Shown here one piece after another: positions 11,048 to 29,937 of a DNA stretch of 64,000 nucleotides (positions are counted from its first letter, which is position 1; each line of letters opens with the position of its first letter). The stretch lies in NCBI RefSeq assembly GCF_003990045.1, contig NZ_RZGZ01000001.1, positions 558,001 to 622,000 of the forward strand, written 5' to 3'. This DNA is from Labedella endophytica. GTDB lineage: Bacteria; Actinomycetota; Actinomycetes; Actinomycetales; Microbacteriaceae. Both the position numbers and the translations under genes were made by a program. Under the pieces are notes generated by a model that did no database searches, had not been told where the DNA came from, and was given only the letters and a program-made list of their open reading frames with translations.

Positions 11048-11289
11048 GCTGCACCCCTGCTCTCGTGGTGGTGGGCGTCGGCGACGCGATCGCGCGGCCG
11101 TGAAGTCGAGGGAACCTCAGGTGAGGAACTCTCACGATCATAACGACGGGAGCCGCGCGCGGCGAGAAAACCCCGTGAACTGGGGGGAGTACGAGCTGAG
11201 GGATCCTCGTTATTCGTCTGCCGCCTTCTGTAACGTGGAATCGGTCGCGCTCCGGGAGGAGCGTGTCCGGACCCGAACGAGGAGTGACC

Positions 11290-12054: not shown

Positions 12055-12752
12055 GCGACGAGACGCAGGACGAGGCGGGGGAGCCGCGCTCTACCGAGGA
12101 GAACGCGGAGGTCGAGGCCCACTCGCGTCGCCGGGCGCTCGTGATCCTCGTGGTCGTGGTCGTCGTCGCCCTCGTGGGCGCGCTCGTGGCCTGGTCGATC
12201 GCGTCCAACGCGCAGGCCCCGGCCGCGACGGCATCGGCCTCCGCGAGTGCCTCGTCGGGTGCGTCCGATCCGGACGCGAGCGACGAACCGGCCGACCCGG
12301 GCGCGCCCGATGAGTCCGCCGACCCGGCCGACCCGGAGGCGGGCGGCGAGGTCACCGACGACATCCGGGAGTTCGACGACACGGCCCCCGTCGGCGACGG
12401 CGTCACCGTTGCGCTGTCCGACCTCGAGGCGGTGGAGGGAGAGGCGTCGATGCCGGGAGAGATCGCCGGGCCGTCCCTGCGCTTCACCGTCACCTTCGCG
12501 AACGACAGCGACGAGGCGTATTCGCTGCTCGGGGCTGTCACCAACGTCTACTTCGGTGCCGACCAGACCCCCGCGATCGAGCTCGCCGAGCCCGGCGGCG
12601 TCGCTCTGCCGTCCGAGGTCGCGCCCGGTGAGACGGTGACCGGCACCTTCGTCTACAACGTACCGACCGACGATCGTGGTCAGGTGCGGATCACCGTGGA
12701 CTACGCGGCCGCCGAGCCTGCCGTCGTCTTCGAGGGCGAGGCACCCCGCTAA
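12051..12752 (+). CDS. Single-pass membrane protein with secreted DUF4352-like beta domain
   Basis: A 233-residue protein. After an acidic 26-residue cytoplasmic start comes one membrane helix (residues about 27-50), then a low-complexity Ala/Ser/Asp/Pro stretch to about residue 105, then a beta-rich domain (GDGVTVALSDLEAVEGEASM, later RFTVTFANDSDEAYSL and GETVTGTFVYNVP) of the kind found in DUF4352/immunoprotective extracellular domains. Its start overlaps the phosphatidyltransferase stop by 4 nt, so the two are probably coexpressed. The function is unknown; a structural or ligand-binding role outside the membrane is inference. Confidence 0.75.
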   Translation: MSDETQDEAGEPRSTEENAEVEAHSRRRALVILVVVVVVALVGALVAWSIASNAQAPAATASASASASSGASDPDASDEPADPGAPDESADPADPEAGGEVTDDIREFDDTAPVGDGVTVALSDLEAVEGEASMPGEIAGPSLRFTVTFANDSDEAYSLLGAVTNVYFGADQTPAIELAEPGGVALPSEVAPGETVTGTFVYNVPTDDRGQVRITVDYAAAEPAVVFEGEAPR

Positions 12753-13013: not shown

Positions 13014-16000
13014 ATGAGTCCATCGTTGTCGGTCCCCGAGACCGCGACCTCCGTTCCCCGGCCCCGACGAGCAGCGCGGCTCGTCGCCCTCGTCGGTGTC
13101 ACCGTTTCCGCCGTCGTGCTGAGCATGCTGTCCCTGCAGCCGGCCGTCGCGGACACGCTGCCCCTGGCAGGCACGCCCGAGACGGTGTCGTCCGATGCGC
13201 TTCCCGCCCCCCAGATCGACGGCGTCGTCTGGGACCAGGCGGTCATCGGCAACACGGTCTACGTCGCCGGCAAGTTCGAGACCGCGCGACCCGCCGGGTC
13301 GGCGGCCGGCGCGAACACGGTGGTGCGGAAGAACTTCCTCGCCTACGACCTGACGACGGGGGCCTTGCTGCCGTTCGCACCTCGCTTCAACCAGCAGGTC
13401 AAGGCGCTCGCGACCTCGCCCGACGGCACCCGGCTCTACGCGGGCGGCTACTTCACGACCGTCAACGACACGGCGCGTTCCTACATCGCGGCCTTCGACA
13501 TCCCCGGCAATTCGCTCTCGACGTTCGCCCCCAAGCTGAACCGCCGTGTCGAGGCGATCGTCGCGACGAACGCGACCGCCTTCGTCGGTGGCGCGTTCAC
13601 CGCCGTGGGAACGACCGAGCGCCTCCGTGGCGCCGCCTTCTCCCGCGCCGGGGTCCTGACGGCATGGACGCCGCGGATCGAGGGCGGATCGGTGAACGCC
13701 ATCACCCTGTCCCCGGATTCCTCGAAGGTCGTCGTCGGCGGGTCGTTCACGACCGTGAACGGCTCGAGCAACCCCGGGTACGGCCTCGCAGCCGTGGACA
13801 CGGCAGCCGGCGAGATCTTGCCGTGGGGAATCAACTCCCTCGTCCGTAACGGCGGTGAGGACGCCGCGATCCTGTCGCTCTCGTCCGACGGGACGAGCGT
13901 CTACGGCACCGGCTACGTCTTCGGCGACGGCGGCAACCTCGAGGGCGCCTTCAAGGCCGATTGGAACGACGGCAGCCTCCAGTGGGTCGAGGACTGCCAC
14001 GGCGACACGTATTCGGTCTCCGCGAGCTCCGATGTCGTCTACACGGCCGGTCACGCGCACTACTGCGGCAACCTCGGCGGCTTCCCTCAGACCGACCCGT
14101 GGGGTTTCCAGCGTGCCGTCGCGTTCACCAAGGCGACCACGCAGACGCTGACGGCCGACCCGCACGGCTACTACAACTACGCCGGCACCCCGGCCCCGTC
14201 GCTCCTCGACTGGTTCCCCACCTTCAACACCGGCTCGGCGTCCGGAGCGACCCAGGGTCCGTGGGACGTGCTCGTCGCCGGGAAGTACGTCCTCTACGGG
14301 GGCGAGTTCACGAGGGTCAACAACGTGGGCCAGCAGGGTCTCGTCCGATTCGCGACGAAGGACATCGCACCGAACACGGACGGTCCGCGACTCAACAGCA
14401 CGAACTTCATGCCCAATGTGGTGTCGTTCAGTGAGGGGACCGCGCGCATCGCCTGGCCGGCCAACCACGACCGGGACAACGCCCTCCTCACGTACCAGGT
14501 GATCCGGAACAACCAGACGGCCACCCCCGTCTACACGACGACGGCCCGGTCCAACTTCTACACGAGGCCGATCCTCTCCTTCACCGACACCGGGCTCACG
14601 CCGGGGGCGACCTACAACTACCGCATCCGGGCGATCGATCCCTACGGCAACGCGTCGCAGGGAAACCCGGTGACCGTCACGGTCGCGGCGAACGGATCCA
14701 TCAGCACGTACGCCCAGTCGGTGCTCGACGACAGCCCCACCTCGTTCTGGCCCCTCGGCGAAGCGTCCGGCACCGCCGGCTACGACTGGGCGGCCGGCGA
14801 CGACCTGACCCTCACGGGCAGCGTCACGCGTGGCACGACCGGTCAGTCCGCCGCCTCGAACGACACCGCGACGACCTTCTCGGGCGCCTCGGACACCTTC
14901 GGCGTCTCGACGGCCGCGCAGTCCGGGCCGAACACGTTCACCGCCGAGGCGTGGATCAAGACGTCCACGACCTCCGGTGGAAAGATCATCGGATTCGGCA
15001 ATGCGCGGACCGGTGACTCCGGTTCGTACGACCGCCACGTCTACATGGACAACTCCGGTCGGATCAACTTCGGCGTCTACACCGGCAACACGCAGGTCGT
15101 GACGAGCGGTTCGAGCTACAACGACGATCAGTGGCACCACGTGGTCGCGAGCATGGGACCGAGCGGCATGCAGCTGTATGTCGACTCGAAGAAGGTCGCG
15201 AGCCGCGCGGACACGACGGCCGGCCAGATCTTCACGGGCTACTGGCGCGTGGGCGGGGACAACCTCGGCGGCTGGCCGAACGGCCCGTCGAACAACCGCT
15301 TCACCGGCGCGATCGACGACGTCGCGGTGTACTCGAGCGTGCTGACGCGTCAGCAGATCGACGCGCACTACGTCGCGTCGGGCCGTGCTTCCACGATCCC
15401 CGTCGCCCCGACGGACGCCTACGGCGCCGCGGTCTTCACCCTCGAGCCGACGAGCTTCTGGCGACTCGGTGAGTCGAGCGGCTCCGTCGCAGCGGACTCC
15501 GGTCCGTTCGGCAACCCGGGCACCTACACGGGACTCGTGGAGAAGGGCGCCGCCGGCGCCATCTCCGGTACCTCCGACACGGCCGCTCGGTTCGCCCCCA
15601 CCGAGGAATGGTGGGGCTGGAACGAGTCCGGCGTCGCGAGTACGAACAGCTACGCGAACCCGACGACGTACGCCCTCGAGGCGTGGTTCAAGACCACGAC
15701 GACCCGCGGCGGCAAGATCATCGGCTTCGGTGCGAGCCCCACGGGCGGCTCCAACGGATACGACCGTCACATCTACATGGAGAACGACGGTCGCCTGACC
15801 TTCGGAACCTGGACGGGACAGTCGAACACCATCACGTCGAGCTCGGCGCTCAACGACGGGACGTGGCACCACGTCGTCGGCCAGCAGTCGTCCGCCGGTA
15901 TGAAGCTGTACGTCGACGGAGTCTCAGTCGGCACCAACCCGCAGACCGGTGCGCAGGACTACACCGGGTACTGGAGGGTCGGAGGCGACACGACGTGGGG

Positions 16001-18410
16001 CGGAACCGCTCCGTACTTCGCCGGCACGATCGACGAGGTCGCGGTGTACTCCGCGCCCCTCACGGACGGGCAGGTCGAGCAGCACCACACCCTCGGCCTC
16101 GGGACGGCGGCCAACGTCCTCCCGACCGCGTCCTTCACGGCAGGGGCGACCGACCTCTCGGTCGCGTTCGACGCAACGGCTTCGGCCGATTCCGACGGCA
16201 CCATCGTCTCCACCATGTGGGACTTCGGTGACGACACCCAGGGGACCGGTTCGATGGTCTCGCACTCCTACACGACGGGTGGCACGTACTCCGTGACCGT
16301 CACCGTGACGGACAACCGCGGGGGAACGGCGACGGAGACGCGCGACGTGACCGTCATCGCCCCCAACGCGGTACCCACCGCCTCGTTCACGGCGAGCGGC
16401 TCGGCCCTCACCGCTTCGTTCGACGCCTCGGCGTCGAGCGACCCGGACGGGACGATCGCGAGCTACGACTGGGCCTTCGGGGACGGGACCTCGGCGACGG
16501 GCGTGACCACCGACCACACCTACGGCGGCGCGGGCACCTTCGTGGTCACGCTCACCGTCACGGACAACCGTGGCGGGACGGCGACGACCACGCGGAACGT
16601 CACCGTCGAGGCCCCGGCCAACCAGAACCCCACGGCGAGCTTCACGGCCGCGGGTTCCGGGCTCGGCGTGAGCGTCGACGCGGCGACGTCGAACGACCCG
16701 GACGGGACCATCGCGTCCTACTCGTGGGAGTTCGGAGACGACGGGACGGCGACGGGCGCGACAGCGACGCACACCTATGCCGAAGCCGGCACCTACACCG
16801 TGACCCTCACCGTCACGGACGACAAGGGAGCCACGGCGCAGACCACCCGGTCCGTGACCGTGACGGCGCCACCCGTCTCCTCGACGATCGCCACGGACGC
16901 CTTCGAGCGCTCCGCGACGAGCGGCTGGGGCGCGGCGAACACCGGTGGTCCCTGGACCGTGACCGGCGGAGCCGCAGCGTTCTCCGTCGCCGGCGGTGAT
17001 GGTGTCATGACACTCGCAGCCGGTCAGACGCGCAACGCGCGCCTCGGGCAGGTCTCCGTCACCGACGTGACGCTCGCGGCCGACATCGCGACGCCGACCC
17101 TCGCGAACGGAGGCGGGTCGTACGTCTCCCTCGTCGCCCGCTCTGTCGACTCGTCGTACTACTCGGCCCGAGTGCGGATCCAGTCCGGAGCAGTCACGCT
17201 GCAGATCCTGCGCAACGGAACGGCGATCTCGCAGACGAACGTCGCGGGACTCACGGTGACGCCGAGCACCACCCTCCGACTGAAGGTGGAGGCGACCGGA
17301 ACATCGCCGACGACCATCCGGTCGAAGGTGTGGATCGCCGGGCAGACCGAGCCGGGGGCCTGGCAGCTCAGCACGACCGACTCGACCGCCGGCCTCCAAG
17401 CCGCCGGCCAGATCGGGATGACGGCCTACATCTCGGGCTCCACCACCAACGGCCCGATCCCGGTCCGGTTCGACGACCTCTCGGCCGTCGCCCCCGGCAC
17501 CGTGACCCCGCCGGTCGACGAGCCGGCGAACCAGGCCCCGACGGCCTCCTTCACGGCGGCTCCGACGGACCTCACGGTCGCGGTGAACGCGTCGGCCTCG
17601 GCCGATGCGGACGGGTCGATCGCGTCCTACGCGTGGAACTTCGGCGACGGCACGACGGGCACGGGGGTCTCGACCTCCCACCCGTACGCGGCGGCCGGCA
17701 CCTACACGGTGACGCTCACCGTGACGGACGACGACGGGGCGACCGCCTCGACGACCCGTTCCGTCGCGGTGGCCGCCCCCGCGGACGCCCAGACGGTCGC
17801 CGCAGACACGTTCGAGCAGCGCACGGTCGCGAACGGCTGGGGAACCAGCACGTCCGGCGCCCCCTGGACCACCGGAGGCTCCGCCTCGGGCTTCGGAGTG
17901 AACGGCGGTGCCGGTGTCATCACCAACGCAGCCGGAGCCTCGCGGTCCGTCTCGCTCAACTCGGTGTCGGAGACGGGTACCGACTCGACCGTGTCCTTCG
18001 TGGTCCCGGCGATCGCAACAGGAGGTGGGCAGTACGTCACGGTGGTCGGTCGACAGATCGGCTCCGAGAAGTACTCGGCCCTCGTGCTCCTGAACGCCAA
18101 CGGCACACTCCAGCTCCAGATCGCTCGCGGAGGGACGAAGCTCCAGACGCTGACCCTTCCGGGCACGACCTACCGGGCAGACAGCACCGTGACGGTCAGG
18201 GTGCAGGTGTCGGGCACATCTCCGACGACGATCCGCGCGAAGGCGTGGGTCGACGGGCAGAGCGAGCCAGACGCGTGGCAGCTCAGCCGCACGGACACCA
18301 CCGCCGTCCTCCAGGCCGCGGGGACGACGGGCCTCGTCTTCTACGTCTCGGGATCGAGCACGGCGCCGGCGTCGATCCGCTTCACGGACTACCTCGTGCG
18401 GAGGATCTGA
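13014..18410 (+). CDS. Giant secreted LamG/PKD surface protein
   Basis: A 1798-residue secreted protein. Order: signal peptide with cleavage after AVA near residue 46; beta-propeller of repeated TVYVAGKFET / RLYAGGYFTT / AFVGGAFTAVG blades (about 60-455); one FN3-like domain (457-560); two LamG/concanavalin domains (565-790 and 801-1024), each with a WHHV core; three PKD domains (1034-1290); a ~200-residue beta domain starting DAFERSATSGWG (1292-1494); a fourth PKD (1509-1594); and a second copy of that beta domain starting DTFEQRTVANGWG (1596-1798). No LPxTG motif or C-terminal helix is present, so it is released or held non-covalently. The folds suggest binding to polysaccharide (inference). 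The same beta domain recurs in the beta-helix protein at 24772-27471. Confidence 0.88.
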   Translation: MSPSLSVPETATSVPRPRRAARLVALVGVTVSAVVLSMLSLQPAVADTLPLAGTPETVSSDALPAPQIDGVVWDQAVIGNTVYVAGKFETARPAGSAAGANTVVRKNFLAYDLTTGALLPFAPRFNQQVKALATSPDGTRLYAGGYFTTVNDTARSYIAAFDIPGNSLSTFAPKLNRRVEAIVATNATAFVGGAFTAVGTTERLRGAAFSRAGVLTAWTPRIEGGSVNAITLSPDSSKVVVGGSFTTVNGSSNPGYGLAAVDTAAGEILPWGINSLVRNGGEDAAILSLSSDGTSVYGTGYVFGDGGNLEGAFKADWNDGSLQWVEDCHGDTYSVSASSDVVYTAGHAHYCGNLGGFPQTDPWGFQRAVAFTKATTQTLTADPHGYYNYAGTPAPSLLDWFPTFNTGSASGATQGPWDVLVAGKYVLYGGEFTRVNNVGQQGLVRFATKDIAPNTDGPRLNSTNFMPNVVSFSEGTARIAWPANHDRDNALLTYQVIRNNQTATPVYTTTARSNFYTRPILSFTDTGLTPGATYNYRIRAIDPYGNASQGNPVTVTVAANGSISTYAQSVLDDSPTSFWPLGEASGTAGYDWAAGDDLTLTGSVTRGTTGQSAASNDTATTFSGASDTFGVSTAAQSGPNTFTAEAWIKTSTTSGGKIIGFGNARTGDSGSYDRHVYMDNSGRINFGVYTGNTQVVTSGSSYNDDQWHHVVASMGPSGMQLYVDSKKVASRADTTAGQIFTGYWRVGGDNLGGWPNGPSNNRFTGAIDDVAVYSSVLTRQQIDAHYVASGRASTIPVAPTDAYGAAVFTLEPTSFWRLGESSGSVAADSGPFGNPGTYTGLVEKGAAGAISGTSDTAARFAPTEEWWGWNESGVASTNSYANPTTYALEAWFKTTTTRGGKIIGFGASPTGGSNGYDRHIYMENDGRLTFGTWTGQSNTITSSSALNDGTWHHVVGQQSSAGMKLYVDGVSVGTNPQTGAQDYTGYWRVGGDTTWGGTAPYFAGTIDEVAVYSAPLTDGQVEQHHTLGLGTAANVLPTASFTAGATDLSVAFDATASADSDGTIVSTMWDFGDDTQGTGSMVSHSYTTGGTYSVTVTVTDNRGGTATETRDVTVIAPNAVPTASFTASGSALTASFDASASSDPDGTIASYDWAFGDGTSATGVTTDHTYGGAGTFVVTLTVTDNRGGTATTTRNVTVEAPANQNPTASFTAAGSGLGVSVDAATSNDPDGTIASYSWEFGDDGTATGATATHTYAEAGTYTVTLTVTDDKGATAQTTRSVTVTAPPVSSTIATDAFERSATSGWGAANTGGPWTVTGGAAAFSVAGGDGVMTLAAGQTRNARLGQVSVTDVTLAADIATPTLANGGGSYVSLVARSVDSSYYSARVRIQSGAVTLQILRNGTAISQTNVAGLTVTPSTTLRLKVEATGTSPTTIRSKVWIAGQTEPGAWQLSTTDSTAGLQAAGQIGMTAYISGSTTNGPIPVRFDDLSAVAPGTVTPPVDEPANQAPTASFTAAPTDLTVAVNASASADADGSIASYAWNFGDGTTGTGVSTSHPYAAAGTYTVTLTVTDDDGATASTTRSVAVAAPADAQTVAADTFEQRTVANGWGTSTSGAPWTTGGSASGFGVNGGAGVITNAAGASRSVSLNSVSETGTDSTVSFVVPAIATGGGQYVTVVGRQIGSEKYSALVLLNANGTLQLQIARGGTKLQTLTLPGTTYRADSTVTVRVQVSGTSPTTIRAKAWVDGQSEPDAWQLSRTDTTAVLQAAGTTGLVFYVSGSSTAPASIRFTDYLVRRI

Positions 18411-18435
18411 CCGCCGTCACTCATCGATGAAGCCA

Positions 18436-18476
18436 CCGGGTGCGCATCCCTTCCCCCTCAGAGGGTGCGCACCCGG
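18436..18476. terminator. Terminator hairpin after the surface protein gene
   Basis: Inverted repeat CCGGGTGCGCA (18436-18446) / TGCGCACCCGG (18466-18476), 11-bp stem, 25 bp after the stop codon, followed by a weak T-containing stretch (TTCGTCGTCC). Confidence 0.7.
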
Positions 18477-18512
18477 TTCGTCGTCCGGCCGCTCGAGCGG
18501 TCGGTGAGAGCA

Positions 18513-18551
18513 CAGAACGCCCGACTCGTCGCCGTCGAGTCGGGCGTTCTG
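18513..18551. terminator. Terminator hairpin for the minus-strand glycosyltransferase run
   Basis: Inverted repeat CAGAACGCCCGACTC (18513-18527) / GAGTCGGGCGTTCTG (18537-18551), 15-bp perfect stem and 9-nt loop. It lies 34 bp downstream of the minus-strand glycosyltransferase stop, so it probably ends that transcript. Confidence 0.75.
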
Positions 18552-18584
18552 CGTGGTAGAAGCCCGCGGAGGGCGGCGGCGGCG

Positions 18585-19562
18585 TCAGCCTGCGTGGCGG
18601 GCTCGGCGTGCGCGACGGGCGAGCCGCCGGCCGTCGCGGAGGCCGCGGAGCGCGGCGCCGAGCGGGGCGGTGGATTGCAGGAGTTGCCGCCGGCCGCCCT
18701 GGAGCAGGATCTCCCAGGCGACGGCGCGGGAGTGGGACAGCCACGACCGGTAGTCCGCGTCCTCCAGATGGAGAGCGGCGAAGAGCAGTCGATTGCGGAT
18801 GTTGTAGTAGTAGTAGGTCGCCGACTTGGGCTCCCCGGCCGAGGAGTGACCGGCCGCTTGCGTACCGCCCTGAGCGTGCTCGGCCGTGACCTCGTCGAGG
18901 AGGACGAGCTCGCCGCCGGTCGCGACGACCCGATGGGAGAGATCGACGTCCTCCCAGTAGAGGAAGTAGTCGTCCGAGAAGCCTCCGGTGGCCTCCCAGA
19001 GTTCCTGCGACACCGCGAGGCACGCACCCGTGAGCCAGGGCTCGATGCGCTCCAGGGGGACGCCGTCGAGCCGTCTGCGACGGGACCGGATGCGGCCATC
19101 GTCGAGATAGAGGTCGGAACCGGCGAACCACACGGTCCCGTCCGGCCGCAGGATCTTCGGGGCGACGAGGGCGTTCGGGGTCTCGCGGACCCGCTCGAAG
19201 AGGGCGGCGGCCGCGTCGACCTCGATGATCGCGTCCGGGTTGAGCAGGAGGTAACGCGAGGCGCCGAGCGCGCGAGCCGCCTCCACGCCGCGGTTCATCC
19301 CGACGCCGAAGCCGAGATTGATCGGGGGCTCGTCGACGTGCCAGCCCTCGGCGGCGGCGAGGTGCCGCAGGTTCTCGCGCTCGAGGGGGTCGGTGTAGTT
19401 GTCGACGACGACGGCGACGATCCCGGGGGCCGCTCGCGTGAGGACGGTGAGGTTCTCCGCGAGGAGACTGCTCGAGCCGTAGTTGACGACGATCACGGCC
19501 GAGCCGTCGAACGGGCCGGCGCCGGGGGAGACTCCCGCCGGTGCCGTCTGATCCTGGCTCAT
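18585..19562 (-). CDS. Family 2 glycosyltransferase
   Basis: A 325-residue GT-A fold transferase. Seen: AVIVVNYGSSSLL at residues 22-34, VVVDNYTD, NLGFGVGMNRGVE, the metal-binding LLNPDAII (the DxD-like site), and GGFSDDYFLYWEDVDLSHRV, the catalytic ED region of rhamnosyltransferase-like GT2 proteins. It lacks membrane segments and would act on a lipid-linked sugar at the inner face of the membrane. Its start overlaps the stop of the upstream flippase gene by 4 nt. Sugar donor unknown, though the WEDVDL form is common in rhamnosyltransferases. Confidence 0.9.
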   Translation of the reverse strand: MSQDQTAPAGVSPGAGPFDGSAVIVVNYGSSSLLAENLTVLTRAAPGIVAVVVDNYTDPLERENLRHLAAAEGWHVDEPPINLGFGVGMNRGVEAARALGASRYLLLNPDAIIEVDAAAALFERVRETPNALVAPKILRPDGTVWFAGSDLYLDDGRIRSRRRRLDGVPLERIEPWLTGACLAVSQELWEATGGFSDDYFLYWEDVDLSHRVVATGGELVLLDEVTAEHAQGGTQAAGHSSAGEPKSATYYYYNIRNRLLFAALHLEDADYRSWLSHSRAVAWEILLQGGRRQLLQSTAPLGAALRGLRDGRRLARRARRARHAG

Positions 19563-21097
19563 CGGAGGTCCTCCTGATCGGTCGGCATGGCGCCGGCAGA
19601 GGGCGACGGTCGCGGCCCGCGGTGTCGGGCCGCGTTCGCGATCTGCACGAGCTCGACGACGTCGCGACGCACGGCCGGGACGACGAGGGCCGCGAGCGCG
19701 TAGACGACGAGGTCCGCCACGGTCGCGGCGAGGATCTGCACGACGGGACCGGCGGGGGCCACGATGGTCGACGCGGCGAACGCTGCGAGGCCGCCGACGA
19801 GGGCGACGGACGAGAGCCGGATCACACCGAGGACGAGCGGGCGCACGGGGATACGGGTGTACCGGGTGAGCCACCAGATCGCGAGCGGCCAGGAGAGGAC
19901 GGGTTCGAGAGCGTAACCGGCCGCGACCCCGACGACCCCCCACTGCGACCCGATCAGGACGAAGGCGATCTTCATGGAGGCCGTGATGAGCGTGAATCGG
20001 AAGAGGGCTCCGGTGAGAGCGCGGGAGACGAAGACCCAGTAGGCGACGTAGGCGAGGGTCTGGAAGGCGCCGGCGACGATGAGGAATCGGAGGACGGGGG
20101 TGACCTCCGCCCACTTCTCGCCGAGGAAGATCGCGACGACCGGCTCGGCGGCACCCGCGACGAGGCCGAGTCCGGCGACGAGCGTGTAGCCGAGCACGAT
20201 CTGTCCGCGGAGGATGTAGGCGTCGAATCGGTCGTACTCGTGCTGCAAGCGTGAGAACAGTGGGATAGCGACGCGCGTGGCGGGGGCGCGGAGCTGATTG
20301 AGCGGATTCATCAGCAGCTGCAGACTCCGGTTGTAGAAACCGAGCTCCCGTGCGCCGAGGCGGAGTCCGATGACCAGCGAGGCCATGTTGTTCGCCGAGT
20401 ACTGCACGAGCTGGGTCGCCACGGTGTTCCACCCGAACCGGTAGAAGCCGGTCATGTCGGTGCCGCGTCTCGGGAGCCTCGGGAGCCACCGGGCCGTCGC
20501 GACACTCAGGATCAGCGTCACGGCGGCGAGCGAGACCATCTGCCAGGCCAGCGCCCAGTACCCGAGGCCGGCGAGGGACAGTACGATCGCGACGACGAGG
20601 GCGGCGACGGCCGCGACGGTATCGATCACGGTGAGGGACCAGAACCGCAGGTCGCGGTTGAGCGAGGCGCGGTGCTGCGTCGCGAGCCCGTTGAACACGA
20701 AGGTGATGCCCATGAACTGGGTCAGGGGGATGAGCTCCGGCCGCCCGTACAGGGCGCCGACGCCGTAGGCGACGCCGACGATGACGACCCCGAGCGCCAG
20801 ACCGATGCCCGAGTTCACCCAGAACAGGACGTCGCGCTGTCGCGTGCTCAACGTGGGGGCCTGGACGGCGGCGTTCGAGAGGCCGAAGTCCCGGAAGACC
20901 TCGGACACGCCGACGACGACCATGACCATGGCGAAGAGGCCGTAATCGGTCGCGCCGAGCAAGCGGGCGAGGATCGAGAGTCCGCCGATCTGGACGGCGA
21001 TACGGATGAGCTGCCCGATGAAGGTGACGGCCGCTCCGCGCGCGGCGCGACGGCCGAATTCGCCGGCTGCAGGCGCTGCGGCTGTTCGTGCGCTCAT
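19559..21097 (-). CDS. Wzx-type polysaccharide flippase
   Basis: A 512-residue polytopic membrane protein of the MOP/polysaccharide transport family (12-14 hydrophobic segments). It starts GAAVTFIGQLIRIAVQIGG, followed by LARLLGATDYGLFAMVMVVVG and DFGLSNAAVQ, the usual N-terminal signature of Wzx/lipopolysaccharide flippases. It would move the undecaprenyl-linked repeat unit across the membrane. It is co-transcribed with the downstream GT2. ATG 21097 is chosen as the first start before the membrane region. A 171-bp divergent intergenic region (21098-21268) separates it from the next GT2. Confidence 0.9.
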   Translation of the reverse strand: MSARTAAAPAAGEFGRRAARGAAVTFIGQLIRIAVQIGGLSILARLLGATDYGLFAMVMVVVGVSEVFRDFGLSNAAVQAPTLSTRQRDVLFWVNSGIGLALGVVIVGVAYGVGALYGRPELIPLTQFMGITFVFNGLATQHRASLNRDLRFWSLTVIDTVAAVAALVVAIVLSLAGLGYWALAWQMVSLAAVTLILSVATARWLPRLPRRGTDMTGFYRFGWNTVATQLVQYSANNMASLVIGLRLGARELGFYNRSLQLLMNPLNQLRAPATRVAIPLFSRLQHEYDRFDAYILRGQIVLGYTLVAGLGLVAGAAEPVVAIFLGEKWAEVTPVLRFLIVAGAFQTLAYVAYWVFVSRALTGALFRFTLITASMKIAFVLIGSQWGVVGVAAGYALEPVLSWPLAIWWLTRYTRIPVRPLVLGVIRLSSVALVGGLAAFAASTIVAPAGPVVQILAATVADLVVYALAALVVPAVRRDVVELVQIANAARHRGPRPSPSAGAMPTDQEDLR

Positions 21098-21268
21098 CGC
21101 GTCGCTTCCTCTCGCGTGTTTGTGGCGTGGTCTGGGGTGATGCGGCCAGGGGGGTGATGAGCGACCCGTGGATGATCGCGCAGGGGGGAGTCGTCCGACA
21201 GAATAAAGTGAGGTCCGACACGCACCCCCCACCCGATCCGTGCGTGCGACCCGGAAGAAGGAGCTCCG

Positions 21269-22297
21269 ATGAGCGCTGGAACATCGCCCCGCCCCGACCA
21301 GGGGAGACCACGGCGTGCTCCTCTCAGCGAGTCCAGCGTCACCATCGCCGTGCTCACCTTCAAGCGACCGGAGGACATCGCCGAGACTCTCCCGCTGCTG
21401 GCCGACCAGGCCGAGTCCGTCATCGCGCGGGTGGGGCGGGCGTCCGTGCTGGTCGTCGACAACGACCCGGCGGAGAGCGCTCGGACTCTCGTGGAGGCGT
21501 ACGCCGCGGAGCGGGCGGAGATCCCGATCCGGTACCACGCCGAACCCGTCTCGGGCATCACGGCGGGACGCAACCGTGCATTGACCGAGGCGGCGGGGGA
21601 CGACATCCTCGTCTTCATCGACGATGACGAACGCCCGACGGATGCCTGGCTCTCGTTGCTCCTCGACACGTTCGAGCAATCCGACGCCGTCGCGGTGGTG
21701 GGTCCCGTCATCTCGCGCTTCGACGTCGAGCCGGACTCCTGGGTCGCGGCCGGCGAGTTCTTCTCGCGCCGGCGGCTGCCCACCGGGTCGGCCGTGACGG
21801 TCGCAGCGACGAACAATCTGCTCCTCGACCTGCGCGTCGTCCGTTCGATCGGGCTCGAATTCGACCCGGCGTTCGGCATCACGGGTGGGGGGGACACGAT
21901 GTTCTCCCGCACGCTCGCCGATCGCGGCGGACGGTTGCTGTGGTGCGACGAGGCGATCGTGTGGGACGTCGTCCCGGCGTCGCGCGTGACACGCGACTGG
22001 GTGGTGCGGCGGGCGTTCCGCAGCGGGAACAGCTGGACGCTCACGTCCGTCGCGCTCGCCGGGGGAGCGGCTGCCGCCTGGAAGGCCAGGGCATCCTGCT
22101 TCGTCAAGGGCGTCGTCCGTGTGGTCGGCGGGGCCGTCCGAGCGGCGCTCGGCGTGCTGACGCGATCGACGCGGCACCGCGCGAAGGGCGTCCGCACGAT
22201 GGCTCGCGGCGCCGGCATGGTCTCGGGGCTCGTCGGATACTCGTACAAGGAGTACCGGCGCGCGGCCCCGCGGTCATCGTCCACGACGCCGGCCTGA
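21269..22297 (+). CDS. Family 2 glycosyltransferase
   Basis: A 342-residue GT-A fold transferase. Seen: VTIAVLTFKRPEDIAETLP near residue 24, VVDNDPAESART, GITAGRNRAL, the DxD metal site FIDDDERPTDAW, and GGGDTMFSRTLADRGGRLLWCDEA. It is the only glycosyltransferase here on the plus strand. RBS AAGGAG lies six bases before ATG 21269. Its 3' end overlaps the convergent GT4 gene by 24 bp. The C-terminal 90 residues form amphipathic/hydrophobic helices that may hold it at the membrane. Donor and acceptor unknown. Confidence 0.88.
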   Translation: MSAGTSPRPDQGRPRRAPLSESSVTIAVLTFKRPEDIAETLPLLADQAESVIARVGRASVLVVDNDPAESARTLVEAYAAERAEIPIRYHAEPVSGITAGRNRALTEAAGDDILVFIDDDERPTDAWLSLLLDTFEQSDAVAVVGPVISRFDVEPDSWVAAGEFFSRRRLPTGSAVTVAATNNLLLDLRVVRSIGLEFDPAFGITGGGDTMFSRTLADRGGRLLWCDEAIVWDVVPASRVTRDWVVRRAFRSGNSWTLTSVALAGGAAAAWKARASCFVKGVVRVVGGAVRAALGVLTRSTRHRAKGVRTMARGAGMVSGLVGYSYKEYRRAAPRSSSTTPA

Positions 22298-23326
22298 ACG
22301 GAGGCGGGCCGAGCGGCGGCTGAGGGCCGCCCCGTACGCGTCGAGATGAGCGCGTCCGGCGCGATCCCAGTCCCGTGCGGACAGGTCGGGACGCGCGGGC
22401 CGGTCCGCTCCTCGGACGGTCTCGAGTGCGGCGGTCAGATCGTCCGGCCCCAGATCGCCCTCGTACTGGACGACCCATCCGTGGCCGACCTCCTCGGCGA
22501 GGCGCTGATTGACGCCGTTCGCCGGGACGAGAACGGGGCGGTCGACCGAGAGGGCCGCGAGCGCGCCCCCCGAGTTGTGCATCTCTCGGTAGGGCAGCAC
22601 CACGATCTCGCCCTGCCTGGCGACGTCGACGAGTTCGGCCTCGGAGAGGAACTCGAGGCTCAACTCCACCCGGTCGTCCGCCGCGGCCAGCGCCGTGAGC
22701 TCCTCCGCGAGTTCGTCGGCCCGCGCCTTGCCGGCGACGCGCAGCGAGAACGCACCGGGGAGTGCCCTGAAGGCCCGCAGGAGTGAATCGACCCCCTTGT
22801 AGCGGCGGATGAGGCCGAAGTAGCTGAAGCGGCCACCGACCGACTCCCGCTGGGGGAATCGCGCGAACCAGTCGCGGTAGTGGCCGTGCAGGATGAGCGA
22901 CGTGGGCGTTCCGAGCGGCACGACGGACGCCTCCGTGTGCACCGTCGAGTCGTTGAGGACGATCGCGTGCGACGTCGCCCTCTCCAGGGCGCCGAGAAGT
23001 ACGTTCTGGGTGCGGCTGAGTCCGTCCGGGCGGTGGAGGTTGTGGACCGTCCGGACGATCGGTGTCCGGGTGAGCTGCAGGCGCGCGAGCAGAGCGGCTG
23101 TGAGGAGCTGTCGCGCGGCCGTCTTGAGCGGGGAGTGCCCCGTGACGAGGATCTCGGGCCAGTGGACGTGGAACACGTCGTAGCGGCCGACGATCGCGCG
23201 CCGCCAGGAGAAGGTCCGCACACCGAGACCGGGGGTCACCGCGAGCTGTTCCCGCAACATGACGATGTACGGGTTCGTCGTCGGACGGGGGTCGGGGAAG
23301 GACTGCTGGACGATGAGGGTCTTCAC
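22274..23326 (-). CDS. Family 4-like glycosyltransferase (GT-B fold)
   Basis: A 350-residue GT-B transferase. N-terminal half: YDVFHVHWPEILVTGHSPLK and VRTVHNLHRPDG, with LLGALERATSHAIVLND. C-terminal half: GRFSYFGLIRRYKGVDSLL, LRVAGKAR, and VVLPYREMHNSGGALAALS, the donor-phosphate EX7E-like region (here with RE and no second E). It overlaps the Wzy-like gene by 4 nt (ATGA), so the two are coexpressed. It likely adds one sugar to the lipid-linked repeat. The conventional second Glu of EX7E is replaced, a feature of this subgroup. Confidence 0.85.
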   Translation of the reverse strand: MKTLIVQQSFPDPRPTTNPYIVMLREQLAVTPGLGVRTFSWRRAIVGRYDVFHVHWPEILVTGHSPLKTAARQLLTAALLARLQLTRTPIVRTVHNLHRPDGLSRTQNVLLGALERATSHAIVLNDSTVHTEASVVPLGTPTSLILHGHYRDWFARFPQRESVGGRFSYFGLIRRYKGVDSLLRAFRALPGAFSLRVAGKARADELAEELTALAAADDRVELSLEFLSEAELVDVARQGEIVVLPYREMHNSGGALAALSVDRPVLVPANGVNQRLAEEVGHGWVVQYEGDLGPDDLTAALETVRGADRPARPDLSARDWDRAGRAHLDAYGAALSRRSARLRSGRRRGR

Positions 23327-24681
23327 GCCGATGCCTTCCGCGCCCGCTGTCGGATCGTCTGCGCCTGCGCACCCGTATCGCTCCCGTGTGCGTGCGGAGC
23401 GCCGAGTGGTGCTGGATGGCGTGGCTGCGCGATGTCCTCGCGCGCCACGAGTCCGACGGCGAGGAAGAGGATCATCGACGGCAGCGAGGAGTGGATCGGG
23501 CTGAACAGCAGATCCCAGAGGAGGATGACGGAGAGGAAGAGGAACGCGGCCGACCCGCTGCGGTGAGCGAGGCGGTGGCTGAGTGCGAGGAATACCAGGA
23601 CCACGATGGAGATGGCGAGTGCGGCCCCGGGCAACCCGAACTGGATCCAGAGATTGCCGATGATCGAATGGACCTCGTACCCGGAACCGAACATGTAATT
23701 CTCGACGTATCCGTTGTTGGGCTGGTAGCCGAGCGCGCTCATCCCGGTCTTCGCCACGAGGATGTCGCTGAAGTTCGCGAGGACGCCCTGGCCGTATCCG
23801 AGGGGCTGATGGGTGAGGAGGGCCACGGAGGCGCCGGCTTCCGGGCGCCCCCCGAGCAGGAGCGTGCCGGAGGTCTCGATCTGCATCTCGCTGCGTTCCT
23901 GGGTGTGTTCGCCGAGGTAGCCGCCGAGGATCGCGGCCTGGACGACGGAGTACACGATCGAGCCGAGGACGCCGAAGCCGATGAGCGTCCGCGCGGTGGA
24001 GGCGCGTCGTCCGCGTGATGTCGGACGCATCTGCCAGAGCACGAGCATTGCGACCATGATGAGGATCGCGCTGCCGGAGCGGACATCGCCCAGGAGCGGC
24101 ACGAGGCTGATCGCGGCGGTCGCGACGAGCCCGACCACGGGGCTACCTGTCTTCCACGCCAGTGCGAGGACCAGGGTCGTGACGGGGAAGCTGAACCCCA
24201 TGCGCCACGGGTCCTCGCTCGAGAGCGCGCCGTCCATGATCAGATGGACGATCGCGGCGGCCGCGAACAGGATCGCGACGAGGGGAGCGCCGATCACACG
24301 GCGCGACCACAGCAGACCGCCGACGAGCAGGGCGATCCCGAGGACCTCCGCGCTGTTCGCGACGAACGCTGCGAGGTAGAAATCGTGGTCCACTCGGGCG
24401 AACTCCGTCAGAACGGCGCCCGAGACGACGCTCAGGACACTGAGTCCGGCGACGAGACGATAGCCCCGGAAACCGATGGCCGCAGAGGCCCAGACAGGGA
24501 GAAGGAGCAGGGCGACGACGTGACCGGCCTGGATCTGGTTCCAGAGGTTGTACTGCAGGCCGAAGACGAGCGGGAGGAAGACCGCGAGCCATACCTCGAT
24601 GGTGCCGCGAGTCGTGGAACGCGAATCGCCGTCGGCCCGGGACTGCGGGCGCGGCGGCGACGGTCGCGTGATCGTGTGCAC
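23323..24681 (-). CDS. Wzy-like O-antigen polymerase/ligase membrane protein
   Basis: About 452 residues with ten to twelve hydrophobic segments and one large outside loop (residues about 250-330, including LTHQPLGYGQGVLANFSDIL and NNGYVENYMFGSGYEVHS), the layout of Wzy/O-antigen polymerases. It would join repeat units on the outer face of the membrane. Start: GTG 24681 is preferred because a strong hairpin (24704-24731), the likely terminator of the beta-helix gene, lies just upstream. The reading frame also stays open to a TTG at 24732. Sequence conservation in this family is poor, so the call rests on topology and neighbours. Confidence 0.8.
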   Translation of the reverse strand: MHTITRPSPPRPQSRADGDSRSTTRGTIEVWLAVFLPLVFGLQYNLWNQIQAGHVVALLLLPVWASAAIGFRGYRLVAGLSVLSVVSGAVLTEFARVDHDFYLAAFVANSAEVLGIALLVGGLLWSRRVIGAPLVAILFAAAAIVHLIMDGALSSEDPWRMGFSFPVTTLVLALAWKTGSPVVGLVATAAISLVPLLGDVRSGSAILIMVAMLVLWQMRPTSRGRRASTARTLIGFGVLGSIVYSVVQAAILGGYLGEHTQERSEMQIETSGTLLLGGRPEAGASVALLTHQPLGYGQGVLANFSDILVAKTGMSALGYQPNNGYVENYMFGSGYEVHSIIGNLWIQFGLPGAALAISIVVLVFLALSHRLAHRSGSAAFLFLSVILLWDLLFSPIHSSLPSMILFLAVGLVAREDIAQPRHPAPLGAPHAHGSDTGAQAQTIRQRARKASA

Positions 24682-24703
24682 GTGGATCCCCCGGACTGCC
24701 CGA

Positions 24704-24731
24704 TGACGGCGCCTCGAGCGAGGCGCCGTCA
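24704..24731. terminator. Terminator hairpin after the beta-helix gene
   Basis: Inverted repeat TGACGGCGCCTC (24704-24715) / GAGGCGCCGTCA (24720-24731), perfect 12-bp stem with a 4-nt loop. On the minus strand it follows the beta-helix stop by about 40 bp and precedes the Wzy-like start, so it separates the two transcripts. Confidence 0.65.
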
Positions 24732-24771
24732 ATCAGACTAGTCGAGGTGACGAATGCTCACATTCCCCTGT

Positions 24772-27471
24772 TCACGGGGTAGGTGAGGCTCCGACCGACG
24801 GGAGGCCCAGAGCCCCGAGCAGGCCGGACAGCTTGCCCGGAAGCGGGACCGAGATGCCCGAAGCGAGGTTCTTCGCGGCCTGCGTGAGAGCGAAGGAGCC
24901 TGTCACCGCGTCCGCGCCCTGCAGGAACTTCGAGCGCTTCTCCTGTCCAGTACCCGCGGTGAACTCGGTGAGACTCCGGTAGTAGCTGAGTCCGTTCGCG
25001 CCATCGGCCCACCGTGCCACGGTGTACCGGCCCGGGGTCGTGTTCTGGTAGAGATTGCCGTTCGTCGTGATCCGCATCTGTTCGGCCGTGAGCTTCTTCT
25101 TCTGGTCGACGACGTGGAAGAGGCCACCGTCGGTCGAGCCGCCGAGGATGTTGTTCGAGACCGTGATGTCCTGCGTCAGCCAGGGGACCGTCATGTCGGG
25201 CTGCTTCTGCCGCGAGTCGTGTCCAGCGTCGGAGGCATTCGTCTGTCGACGTGGGTCCTGGACGATCGTCACGGGCGCGCCTCCGTTGTCCACGATGCTG
25301 TTGTTCCACACCTGGACGTCTCCCGTGTTCTGGATGCTGAGACCGAGTCGGGCGTTGTCGTGGATGCGGTTGTCCGCGACGACGAGCTTCGCGGACAGCT
25401 CGAGCGACAACCCCGTGGAACTTCCCGAGATGTCGTTGCCGGTGATGGTGACGTTGTAGACCGACTCGTCGAACCACAGTCCCGTCGTGCGGTTGGCGGC
25501 GAATTCGTTATCGGTGACCGCCACGCCTCGCGAACGCGTGACCTTGAAGCCTCCCGAGCCGGGCAACTCCTTGAACCGCTGCACGTTGTTGTTCACGAGG
25601 AGCGAACCGTCGAGGGTGAAGTCGTCGGAGTACACGCTGCCTCCCCCGGATCGGCCGTTGTCGGCCAGCGTGAGGGCGCGGTAGACGGTGCCCGAGCCCC
25701 GCGACGCGTAGATGCCGGAGGCGGCGTTCCCGCGGGAGACGACGTTCTCGATGAGCACGTCGTCGGCCTGCGTGTAGAGGGCCGACTTCTGCCAGACCGA
25801 GGTCGCGTACCGTTGAACGCCGATACCGCGGACCACGGTGCCGTCGCCGCTCACCGTGATGCCGACCTGGAGCGTGCTCACGCGGACATCGCGGCCCGCC
25901 GGGTTCGTGCCGAGGACGAGCTGGTCGGCCCGGCGGTCGACGTAGAAGGTCCCGTCCTTCACCGCCCCACGGGAGCCGACCTCCGTGAGCGTCGCGCCGT
26001 CGACCCAGACCTGGTCGGGGTGCGCCGCGAGCGGGAATGCCGGGTCGATGAACTTGATGGACTCGTCCGTGTTGTCCGGTGCGCCCTTCGTGAAGGTGGG
26101 GCTCGTGTCGAAGTCGTAGTCGTAGCCGTCGAGCACCCAGCCGGTGGAGGCCTTCTTCCAGGAGTTGACCTTCTCGGCTCCGTCGAACCAGACGGCCTCG
26201 CCCGGGTAGGACTGGATGGTGAGTCGCTTGCCGTTCGGGACCTCCACGGATTCGTGGTACGTGCCCGCCCGGAGCACGAGGGTGGCTCCGTTCGGCGCTG
26301 CGGCGATCGCGCGATTCACCGAGGAGTAGGGCGATCCCTTCGATCCGTTGCCCGTCGACGTCGCGGACGACGAGACGAACACCGCGCCGGAGGGGACCGG
26401 GTAGGAGGTGGACCCGACGGTCGCCGATCCGCGATCGCCCGCCGTGCTCGGCGGAACCGGCTTCGTGGGCTCCGGAGTGGTCGGCGTCGGTGCCGGTGTC
26501 GTCGGCTTGGTGGTGGGTGCCGGTGCCGGTGCCGGTGTTGTCGGCTTCGTGGTCGGTGTCGGAGCGGGTGTCGTCGGCTTCGTGGTCGGAGTCGGCGCCG
26601 GTGTCGTCGGCTTCGGCTCCGTGGTCTTCGAGGGCACGAGCTTGACTGCTCGCAGGTCGTCCACCGTGAGCGCGAGGGGGCGGGTGCCGTACGACAGATA
26701 GGTCCAGATGGCGACACCGCCCGACGCGATCCGCTTGCTGCTCGTGTCGGTGGCGATCTTCTGCCACGTCGGTGCGCTCCTGCCGGCCACGTAGGCCCGG
26801 GCGTTCACCGTGACCTCGGTGCTCCCGATCACCTCGAGGTCGATGCGGATCGGTGTCTTGGCGGTGACCCCACGAGCGACGACGGTGGAGGCGGCCAGAA
26901 CGGCGACCTTGTTCGATCCGTTGGCGCGGACGATCTGCATCGATGCGTCTCCACTGGGGGTCACCCGGAGCTTCGCGCCGTAGTAGGTCCCCCCGGTCGC
27001 TCGCGCTTGGAGGGTCGTGTAGTAACCACCGCCCGACGTCGGCGCGACCGGCGCCGTGACGGTGATGCCGGTGGAGACGTCCGCCACCTTCCCGTCGACG
27101 CCGACACCGCGACCGGCACCCGACGAGTCGAGGGAGACGTTTCCGACGCCCTTGCCGACGGAGAGTCCGGACGTGCTCGACGACGTGTACGCGCCACCCG
27201 TGTCGGCGGATCCGAACCCGGAGGCGACGCTGCGGCTGAAGGTATCGGTGACCATCGTCTCGCCCTCGACGTAGGCGGCGGCGTCCGCGCCGTCCGGCGT
27301 CGGCACGACGTTGGCGACGACGAGTGCCCCGGCCGCGGCGGCGGCCGCGACGGCCAGGAGGCCTCGGTAGCGGCGATCGGAGGAGCGGCGAGCTCGGCGA
27401 GCGGCAGCACGGGTCGGGGCGATGGGTGGGCCGTCGGTAGGAGCGATGGACGTGCTTCGGCGTTCGGTCAC
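24772..27471 (-). CDS. Secreted right-handed beta-helix protein (polysaccharide-active candidate)
   Basis: An 899-residue secreted protein. Seen: Arg-rich start, hydrophobic signal segment at residues 37-55, cleavage near ADAAA (65); a ~200-residue beta domain (76-280) beginning DTFSRSVASGFGSADTGG, the same type as the two copies in the giant surface protein; a Pro/Thr-rich linker (282-341); then a parallel beta-helix region (about 365-750) with ladders such as VTDNEFAANRTTGLWFDE, ITGNDISGSSTGLSLE and VADNRIHDNARLGLSIQN. Such helices are found in pectate, alginate and tailspike lyases or epimerases. Placed between the polymerase and the BY-kinase genes, it may trim or modify the polymer (inference; no catalytic residues can be assigned). 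Confidence 0.85.
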   Translation of the reverse strand: MTERRSTSIAPTDGPPIAPTRAAARRARRSSDRRYRGLLAVAAAAAAGALVVANVVPTPDGADAAAYVEGETMVTDTFSRSVASGFGSADTGGAYTSSSTSGLSVGKGVGNVSLDSSGAGRGVGVDGKVADVSTGITVTAPVAPTSGGGYYTTLQARATGGTYYGAKLRVTPSGDASMQIVRANGSNKVAVLAASTVVARGVTAKTPIRIDLEVIGSTEVTVNARAYVAGRSAPTWQKIATDTSSKRIASGGVAIWTYLSYGTRPLALTVDDLRAVKLVPSKTTEPKPTTPAPTPTTKPTTPAPTPTTKPTTPAPAPAPTTKPTTPAPTPTTPEPTKPVPPSTAGDRGSATVGSTSYPVPSGAVFVSSSATSTGNGSKGSPYSSVNRAIAAAPNGATLVLRAGTYHESVEVPNGKRLTIQSYPGEAVWFDGAEKVNSWKKASTGWVLDGYDYDFDTSPTFTKGAPDNTDESIKFIDPAFPLAAHPDQVWVDGATLTEVGSRGAVKDGTFYVDRRADQLVLGTNPAGRDVRVSTLQVGITVSGDGTVVRGIGVQRYATSVWQKSALYTQADDVLIENVVSRGNAASGIYASRGSGTVYRALTLADNGRSGGGSVYSDDFTLDGSLLVNNNVQRFKELPGSGGFKVTRSRGVAVTDNEFAANRTTGLWFDESVYNVTITGNDISGSSTGLSLELSAKLVVADNRIHDNARLGLSIQNTGDVQVWNNSIVDNGGAPVTIVQDPRRQTNASDAGHDSRQKQPDMTVPWLTQDITVSNNILGGSTDGGLFHVVDQKKKLTAEQMRITTNGNLYQNTTPGRYTVARWADGANGLSYYRSLTEFTAGTGQEKRSKFLQGADAVTGSFALTQAAKNLASGISVPLPGKLSGLLGALGLPSVGASPTP
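26449..26628 (-). repeat. Pro/Thr minisatellite in the beta-helix gene
   Basis: About 180 bp of degenerate tandem repeat coding for alternating PTTPAP and PTTK units (residues 282-341). It forms a stiff linker between the beta domain and the beta-helix. Such repeats change length easily by slippage. Confidence 0.8.
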
Positions 27472-27738: not shown

Positions 27739-29142
27739 CTATACGTCGTCGGGGCGGGAGGATGCCGCCACGCGGGGGTCGGCGACGCGTCGCGTGGGTG
27801 CCTTCTCCGACTCCGTGTAGTAGGTCAGTCGTTCGTGTCCCGTGACGTCGTTCGTCACGACGCCGAGTACACGCGCTCCGACGGAGCCGAGGGTCGCCAT
27901 GGCCTTCGAGAGCTGCGGGCGCTTGGTCTTCTTGGATCGGGCGACGACGATCGCGCCGTCCGTCTCGTGCACGAGCCACAGGGGATCGGTCACCGGGATG
28001 AGCGGGGAGGTGTCGATGACGACGAAGTCGTACCGCTTCTTCAGCTCGGCGAGCGTCGCGCGCATGGTGTCGGACGCGAGGAGCTGGTTGGGATTCGGCG
28101 GGACGGTGCCCGCGGTCAGCACGTCGAGACCGCGGGTGCCCCAGGGCTGGACGGCCTCCTCGATCGTGGAGCCCCCGAGCAGGACGCTCGTGAGGCCGAC
28201 GGTGCCGTCGAGGCCCGTGTAGTCGGCGACCGACGGCTTGCGGAGGTCGGCGTCCACGAGGAGGACGCGCCCCATGCTCTCGGCCAGGGCCAGTGCCAGG
28301 CCGACCGACACCGAGCTCTTTCCCTCGCCCGGCATGGCCGACGTGACGACGACGGCGGAGACGGGCTTGTCCACGTCCGCGAAGGCGAGGCTCATGCACA
28401 GGCTGCGGAACGACTCGGCGGTGGCACCGTTCGGGTTCGTGCTGATGATCTGCGCGAGGCTGCGGTCGCGGGGGCCGCGGCCGATCTCCGCGAGGATCGG
28501 CGAGTCGGTGACGAGCTCGATGTCCTTCTGGGTGCGGATGCGGGTGTCGATGAGTTCGCGGAGAACGCCCCAGGCGAGACCCAGCAGGAGACCGATCGCC
28601 GCGCCGATGGCGACGATCATCCGCGTGTCGGGGGAGAACGGCGCCACGGGTGCCGTCGCCGGCGAGATGATCGTCAGCTCCACGGGCGAGTCGGTCTCGA
28701 CGCCCCTCGTGGAGATCTCCGCGACGGCCTCGGCGAGTCGGCGGGTGACGGCCGAAGCGATCTCCTGCGCCTCGGAGGCGTCACCGCTCACGACGGAGAT
28801 CTCGATGACGACGGTGTTGAGAGGGGTGTCGACGGAGACGGCACTCGCGAGGTCCTTGACGCTCGTGTCCAGATCGAGGTCGTCGATGACGGGGCCGAGG
28901 ACGTAGTCCGTCGTCGCCATCGTGGCGTAGGACTGCACGAGCCCTTGGACGAGGCTGGATCCCTGGACGAGTTCGCCTGTCGTCTCGCCGGTCACCGTCG
29001 ACGCGTAGGCCTGGGCCGTGGAGCGGTACATGTCCGGCATCGTCTGCGCGTATCCGTAACCGGCCCCGGCGCCGAGCAGCGTCAGCGCGGTGATGACGAT
29101 CCAGTTCTTCCGGATCGCGCCGATGTAGTCGTGGATGTTCAT
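27739..29142 (-). CDS. Wzz-domain BY-kinase (polysaccharide co-polymerase)
   Basis: A 467-residue one-piece Wzc-type protein. Order: Wzz chain-length domain with membrane helices at residues 14-33 and 175-194; then the cytoplasmic tyrosine kinase with Walker A SAMPGEGKSS (268-277), Walker A' VLLVDADL (293-300) and Walker B FVVIDTSP (373-380). The C-terminal tail has only one Tyr pair (441-442). The oligomerisation motif ExxRxxR appears as ESFRSLC (243-249), with the last Arg replaced by Cys. It sets chain length with the Wzy-like polymerase and is reset by the divergent tyrosine phosphatase. ATG 29142 has GAGGGGG upstream. Confidence 0.92.
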   Translation of the reverse strand: MNIHDYIGAIRKNWIVITALTLLGAGAGYGYAQTMPDMYRSTAQAYASTVTGETTGELVQGSSLVQGLVQSYATMATTDYVLGPVIDDLDLDTSVKDLASAVSVDTPLNTVVIEISVVSGDASEAQEIASAVTRRLAEAVAEISTRGVETDSPVELTIISPATAPVAPFSPDTRMIVAIGAAIGLLLGLAWGVLRELIDTRIRTQKDIELVTDSPILAEIGRGPRDRSLAQIISTNPNGATAESFRSLCMSLAFADVDKPVSAVVVTSAMPGEGKSSVSVGLALALAESMGRVLLVDADLRKPSVADYTGLDGTVGLTSVLLGGSTIEEAVQPWGTRGLDVLTAGTVPPNPNQLLASDTMRATLAELKKRYDFVVIDTSPLIPVTDPLWLVHETDGAIVVARSKKTKRPQLSKAMATLGSVGARVLGVVTNDVTGHERLTYYTESEKAPTRRVADPRVAASSRPDDV

Positions 29143-29187
29143 GAGTCCCCCTCGGGTGAGTCGACCGGTTGAGGGGCCGGTCGCCCC

Positions 29188-29883: not shown

Positions 29884-29937
29884 GGTGCCGCGGTCTCCGC
29901 TGCGACGTGCTGCGGCGTCGAGATCGATCGTCGCGGG

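Follow-up and report, generated by a model that had tools for sequence, protein, structure and literature searches.

CBM66 of Bacillus subtilis (PDB IDs: 4azz, 4b1m and 4b1l) is a ConA-like beta-sandwich that binds terminal fructosides; ConA-like folds also occur as catalytic or protein-binding domains. At the tail tip of mycobacteriophage Douge, the CFP C-terminal domain (PDB ID: 8zdp) and BppU-CBM (PDB ID: 8zdo) are reported to bind both to the surface of M. smegmatis and, on an array, to fragments of mycobacterial glycans, the CFP construct in this binding work also including the tip domain (PMC13033339). The GH120 enzymes, among them the beta-xylosidase XylC (PDB ID: 3vst), have an Ig-like sandwich inserted into their core (PMC6887791). 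In XylC, Asp382 is the nucleophile and Glu405 the acid/base, mutation of the equivalent residues abolishes activity in three relatives (PMC8954004), and the characterised GH120 enzymes described in two papers act on xylo-oligosaccharides (PMC8954004, PMC6887791). Likenesses to each of these systems are found in a 64,000-nucleotide stretch of Labedella endophytica DNA (the window), in which two secreted proteins carry a shared, so far unnamed domain of ~205 residues, here called X, at an exopolysaccharide locus (Table 1).

Table 1 Features of the window and the basis of their assignment.
Feature	Coordinates	Strand	Basis and remarks
Cytidylyltransferase-like gene	10592-11047	-	Pfam; recurs in related loci
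CDP-alcohol phosphatidyltransferase-like gene	11284-12054	+	Pfam; recurs in related loci
DUF4232-like gene	12051-12752	+	Pfam below cut-off; recurs beside giant protein
Giant secreted protein, 1798 aa	13014-18410	+	ORF, Pfam, family-profile architecture, hydropathy
Domain X copy 1	16878-17504	+	Giant protein; BLASTP, family-profile boundaries, AlphaFold2 pLDDT 95.8
Domain X copy 2	17787-18407	+	Giant protein, reaches its last residue; BLASTP, family-profile boundaries
Glycosyltransferase family 2	18585-19562	-	Pfam, scores slightly under curated cut-offs
Wzx-type flippase	19559-21097	-	Pfam Polysacc_synt_3 8.4e-68
Glycosyltransferase family 2	21269-22297	+	Pfam
Glycosyltransferase group 1	22274-23326	-	Pfam
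Putative Wzy polymerase	23323-24681	-	Inferred from position and many hydrophobic stretches; relatives in related loci
Secreted X-beta-helix protein, 899 aa	24772-27471	-	ORF; Pfam Beta_helix 8.3e-17; inside exopolysaccharide locus
GH120-like right-handed beta-helix	25192-26433	-	Profile match to XylC
E691	25399-25401	-	Aligns with XylC Glu405
D668	25468-25470	-	Aligns with XylC Asp382
Domain X copy 3	26626-27264	-	Beta-helix protein, directly after hydrophobic N-terminal segment; BLASTP, family-profile boundaries
Wzz/tyrosine-kinase-like chain-length protein	27739-29193	-	Pfam
Glycosyltransferase group 1	29938-31173	-	Pfam
Glycosyltransferase with DUF1972	31170-32375	-	Pfam
Initiating sugar transferase	32375-33886	-	Pfam Bac_transf 2.5e-69

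An earlier sequence-only reading had described three copies of one beta domain in the two secreted proteins, and all three are present at the places it gave. In pairwise BLASTP, copies 1 and 2 share 47% identity (E 6e-56), copies 1 and 3 share 34% (E 4e-27) and copies 2 and 3 share 32% (E 5e-19), E-values that rule out chance similarity. The motif that had been proposed for them, DxFxRxxxxGWGxAxxGGxW, is exact in copy 1 and inexact in the other two: in the alignment, copy 2 has one additional residue (DTFEQR) and GTS in place of GxA, and copy 3 has GFG in place of GWG and Y in place of W. Elsewhere in the 3.67-Mb genome, for which two named Labedella species are the nearest hits (80 and 85% identity over the best segment), three more copies each end a protein with propeller-FN3-LamG organisation. 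As for the proposed profile search against domain databases, no Pfam model falls on X in either window protein, 22 members scanned one at a time give nothing better than E 0.024 (chance level), and no NCBIfam model falls on it in the two window proteins. Assignment to a known Pfam or NCBIfam domain is rejected for want of a usable score, and identity with a LamG or PKD repeat is rejected because Pfam places both elsewhere in the giant protein. A sequence search of the PDB with X gives no relative, its best hit (E 0.043) being to a ribosomal protein and put down to chance, and no description of the domain was found in searches of the open-licence literature.

Based on an AlphaFold2 model from 22 sequences, X is confidently predicted to be all-beta (pLDDT 95.8, pTM 0.92), and the model has the two-sheet jelly-roll sandwich of the ConA-like lectin/glucanase fold. 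The jelly-roll CBM fold that had been expected is thus borne out by a model close to CBM66. With this model, Foldseek returns 266 PDB matches at E <= 0.001, the best 50 of which are mostly lectins and GH16-type and GH43 ConA-like domains. The top VIA-align match is CBM66 (PDB ID: 4azz; Z 18.3, rmsd 2.3, 159 residues), which shares the ConA-like beta-sandwich with X but only 18% of its residues, and whose solved chain has 165 residues rather than ~205. Comparable values (Z 18.1 and 17.6, 179 aligned) are obtained for the fibre and baseplate domains of Douge, at residues 688-878 (CFP C-terminal domain) and 113-310 (BppU-CBM). These two domains occupy a tail-tip place resembling that of X in Streptomyces phages, but they are only 17% and 9% identical to X and are missed when the PDB is searched with the X profile. 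The next matches are galactocerebrosidase, ERGIC-53, alginate lyase and legume lectins. A predicted fold shared with sugar-binding domains does not prove the function of X.

In the giant protein, a hydrophobic N-terminal segment is followed by a beta-propeller, an FN3 domain, two LamG domains, three PKD domains, X copy 1, a further PKD domain and X copy 2; the protein may be adhesin-like. Neither this protein nor the beta-helix protein contains an LPxTG motif, and hydropathy shows only one strongly hydrophobic stretch in each.

The second X protein resembles XylC in its beta-helix. Thirty-one frames in the fetched loci match this region, duplicates and fragments included, and with a profile built on 24 long members XylC is the best PDB match (E 1.6e-16), ahead of mannuronan epimerases at 2.6e-8 and weaker; together with the Pfam Beta_helix match, this points to the right-handed parallel beta-helix core of GH120. 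Counted along the alignment, the Asp of GLWLD corresponds to XylC residue 382 and the Glu that follows to residue 405, which makes D668 and E691 a candidate catalytic pair, in a stretch whose match is weak alone (i-Evalue 0.089). Both residues are invariant in 24 of 24 beta-helix homologues, X-less members included. The AlphaFold2 model of this protein is poor (pLDDT 61.5), including between the N-terminal stretch and the helix, and although a fold search with it places XylC first, the model is too poor for this ranking to carry weight. An alginate epimerase and a NosD-type copper protein were each rejected, since NCBIfam scores lie far under cut-off and, for the former, XylC outscores the epimerases. 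The protein is proposed to be a GH120-like glycosidase that may act on the surface polymer. Unlike XylC, it is exported, often carries X and belongs to a locus for biosynthesis, in which the degradation of xylan is no obvious task. Seven complete beta-helix proteins in exopolysaccharide loci lack X, so the domain is not needed for that enzyme; these are what remains of ten X-less frames once the frames of L007 and L008, truncated where the locus ends, and a fragment in L064 are set aside. The beta-helix gene at L064:4479-7205, beside an intact copy, is broken into two frames, the first with X and the second without, and is likely a disrupted gene.

On the minus strand from position 33886, the exopolysaccharide locus encodes the initiating transferase, two glycosyltransferases, the Wzz-kinase, the X-beta-helix protein, the putative polymerase, a glycosyltransferase, the flippase and another glycosyltransferase. 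The plus strand holds one further glycosyltransferase and, converging on the end of the locus, the giant protein. The Wzx/Wzy-type components Bac_transf, Polysacc_synt_3 and Wzz are found; the putative polymerase matches no Pfam family. According to the sequence-only reading, the two X proteins bracket the exopolysaccharide genes. This description holds only in part: the locus contains the beta-helix gene, and the Wzz-kinase, two glycosyltransferases and the initiating transferase (27739-33886) lie beyond it. By eye, the five-gene interval between the two X proteins keeps its order in L062, L086 and L110, the three remaining genomes of the genus, and in L068 and L120, both from a second genus, and the locus is reshuffled in other genera. 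The genes at 10592-12752 recur in related loci across genera, which extends the locus to 10592; these cytidylyltransferase-, CDP-alcohol phosphatidyltransferase- and DUF4232-like genes may modify the polymer with a phospho-substituent or serve in making a lipid.

Of 199 Microbacteriaceae genomes, 55 carry X (30 of 85 genera), against only 18 of 396 genomes sampled from the phylum. Linkage was assessed in 53 X-positive genomes holding 150 copies with listed places in 85 clusters, two X-positive genomes with no listed place (G029 and G056) being omitted; the distance limit is 15 kb in the linkage and architecture counts and 20 kb in the tree labels. In these counts, which come from related genomes and are not independent, a Wzz (PF02706) gene is no more than 15 kb away from 47 of the 85 clusters, each in a different genome, against ~1.7 expected under uniform placement, and a PF13440 flippase is near 22, against 1.1 expected. 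A forty-eighth genome, G076, has a Wzz relative missed by PF02706 at 3.4 kb from its X cluster. As controls in the same genomes, 1 of 38 Big_5 and 0 of 32 LPXTG anchor occurrences are near Wzz. Since 47 of the 107 Wzz genes in the 53 genomes are near X, the domain marks one exopolysaccharide locus among several. The Wzz proteins near X are 25 to 100% identical to that of the window; a single shared Wzz type beside X is rejected, some genomes (e.g., G028 and G140) keeping a closer Wzz relative away from X. In total, 102 copies are near Wzz and the other 59 of 161 have no Wzz gene inside 15 kb. X is tied to exopolysaccharide loci, yet not confined to them. The observation that would have told against the sequence-only reading, a domain equally common far from polysaccharide loci, is not made: X is far commoner near them than by chance, without being exclusive.

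Of the 125 distinct X frames counted for these genomes, with L007-L017 omitted, the giant type (propeller or LamG) accounts for 83 and the X-beta-helix type for 20, with 22 of other kinds; the family-profile boundary set is larger (181 copies in 139 frames) and holds duplicates (L007 with L062, L008 with L110). Giant-type proteins with two X domains are near Wzz in 28 of 31 cases, and those with one X in 25 of 52. All 20 X-beta-helix genes sit in stretches that hold exopolysaccharide genes, including four that are scored as far from Wzz and share their fetched stretch with such genes. In ten of the other frames, Pfam identifies GH88 (two), metallophosphoesterase (three), CotH with LTD (one), a Ser/Thr protein kinase (one) and a weak beta-helix (one), with nothing clear in two. 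The kinase, from Streptosporangium (L015:8840-10636), has X as its C-terminal part, which suggests an extracellular sensor of surface glycan. At L019:6009-9646, two adjoining DUF3131-glucoamylase-like proteins are encoded beside a single-X propeller protein of the same genome, between purine biosynthesis genes.

In a FastTree phylogeny of 173 X copies, in which many deep branches are weak, the 22 beta-helix copies need 2 label changes against a shuffled mean of 21.0 and form nearly one clade across genera, apart from the giant-protein X of the same locus; the giant-type copies are scattered. From this placement, the three window copies are old paralogues and not recent duplicates of each other. 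Recent duplication within the locus is rejected, as the beta-helix X groups with the beta-helix X of other genera, and the two kinds of protein need not share a ligand.

X also occurs in phages. By tblastn it is present in 17 of 50,697 phage records, 16 from Streptomyces phages, with some phages entered twice, and one uncultured; in six records, the profile E-values range from 8e-22 to 4e-56. In five annotated phages, X lies in a large protein whose gene follows the tape-measure gene directly or with one small gene between them, the gene preceding it in Dagobah carrying no name. Two X proteins of large-genome relatives in the class are within prophages with head, tape-measure and endolysin genes. 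In addition, 15 of 22 X members match phrog_24476 (best 1.1e-22), annotated as phosphodiesterase, whose C-terminal positions 829-1035 of 1066 match X (member 1); unlike X, this PHROG describes a whole phage tail protein and not the domain alone. Three X copies are present in an unannotated record of the phage collection that comes from human faeces (L167:2782-8599), the closest being 40% identical to the window's.

The presence of X on phage tail proteins independently supports action at the cell surface, and, as the domain is also lectin-shaped, it probably grips cell-surface sugars. Its association with GH88 and the GH120-like beta-helix, partners acting on sugars, likewise counts for sugar binding, and we consider it probable that X is a carbohydrate-binding-type domain that binds glycan. 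A terminal structural or sorting domain, serving in export, as a folding cap or in protein-protein contact with no sugar bound, would account for the giant-type proteins, 81 of 83 of which have X ending no more than 5 residues from the C-terminus, where a sorting signal could lie; this role is improbable given that X is N-terminal in 20 of 20 beta-helix proteins and internal or close to the C-terminus in phage proteins, and that its nearest folds are sugar-binding. The many architectures could also reflect an ordinary modular domain that shuffling has spread and that is co-located only through a general clustering of surface genes; this reading is very improbable because the other surface markers of the same genomes are so rarely near Wzz (1/38 and 0/32).

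As to the glycan that would be bound, the polymer of its own locus, which the sequence-only reading had suggested for both proteins, is a plausible ligand, at slightly less than an even chance. Its serious rival is a general actinobacterial envelope glycan, a wall polymer or arabinan-like sugar, in which case the linkage would reflect where surface-acting proteins are encoded and not the product of the neighbouring genes. Such a ligand would explain X on Streptomyces phage tail proteins, in two prophages and on a Ser/Thr kinase, metallophosphoesterases and a CotH protein, the 59 of 161 copies far from Wzz, and the persistence of X beside Wzz proteins so divergent that the machinery differs; the far copies, unrelated carriers, phage tails and separate beta-helix clade all argue against a locus-specific ligand. 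The strong enrichment of X beside exopolysaccharide loci and the excess of two-X giants there point the other way, and we regard a general glycan as possible though unlikely. The preferred reading, given about an even chance, is that X represents a ConA-like carbohydrate-binding module family and is the grip that holds the exported GH120-like glycosidase and the giant protein, which have no other recognised anchor, at the surface polymer. The enzyme, putatively of retaining type, would trim or remodel the polymer of the surrounding Wzx/Wzy-type genes, and the giant propeller-LamG-PKD protein would stay on it through its two X domains while its N-terminal part reaches outward. A broader form of this grip, in which X is the hook of an anchor-free display in Microbacteriaceae, tethering exported proteins that lack LPXTG or membrane anchors to the Wzx/Wzy polymer which their locus makes, and is carried on the tails of actinobacterial phages to recognise surface glycans, is tentative and rather doubtful. 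X recurs but has no Pfam model, and bacterial surface proteins share it with the tails of actinobacteria-attacking phages; a name for it would allow many proteins now called 'hypothetical' or 'minor tail' to be annotated, provide a probe for actinobacterial surface glycans and draw attention to a GH120-like enzyme among biosynthetic genes. The window also contains a long ORF on the minus strand at 43117-46230, in its most G+C-rich stretch (0.748 at 44001-46000).
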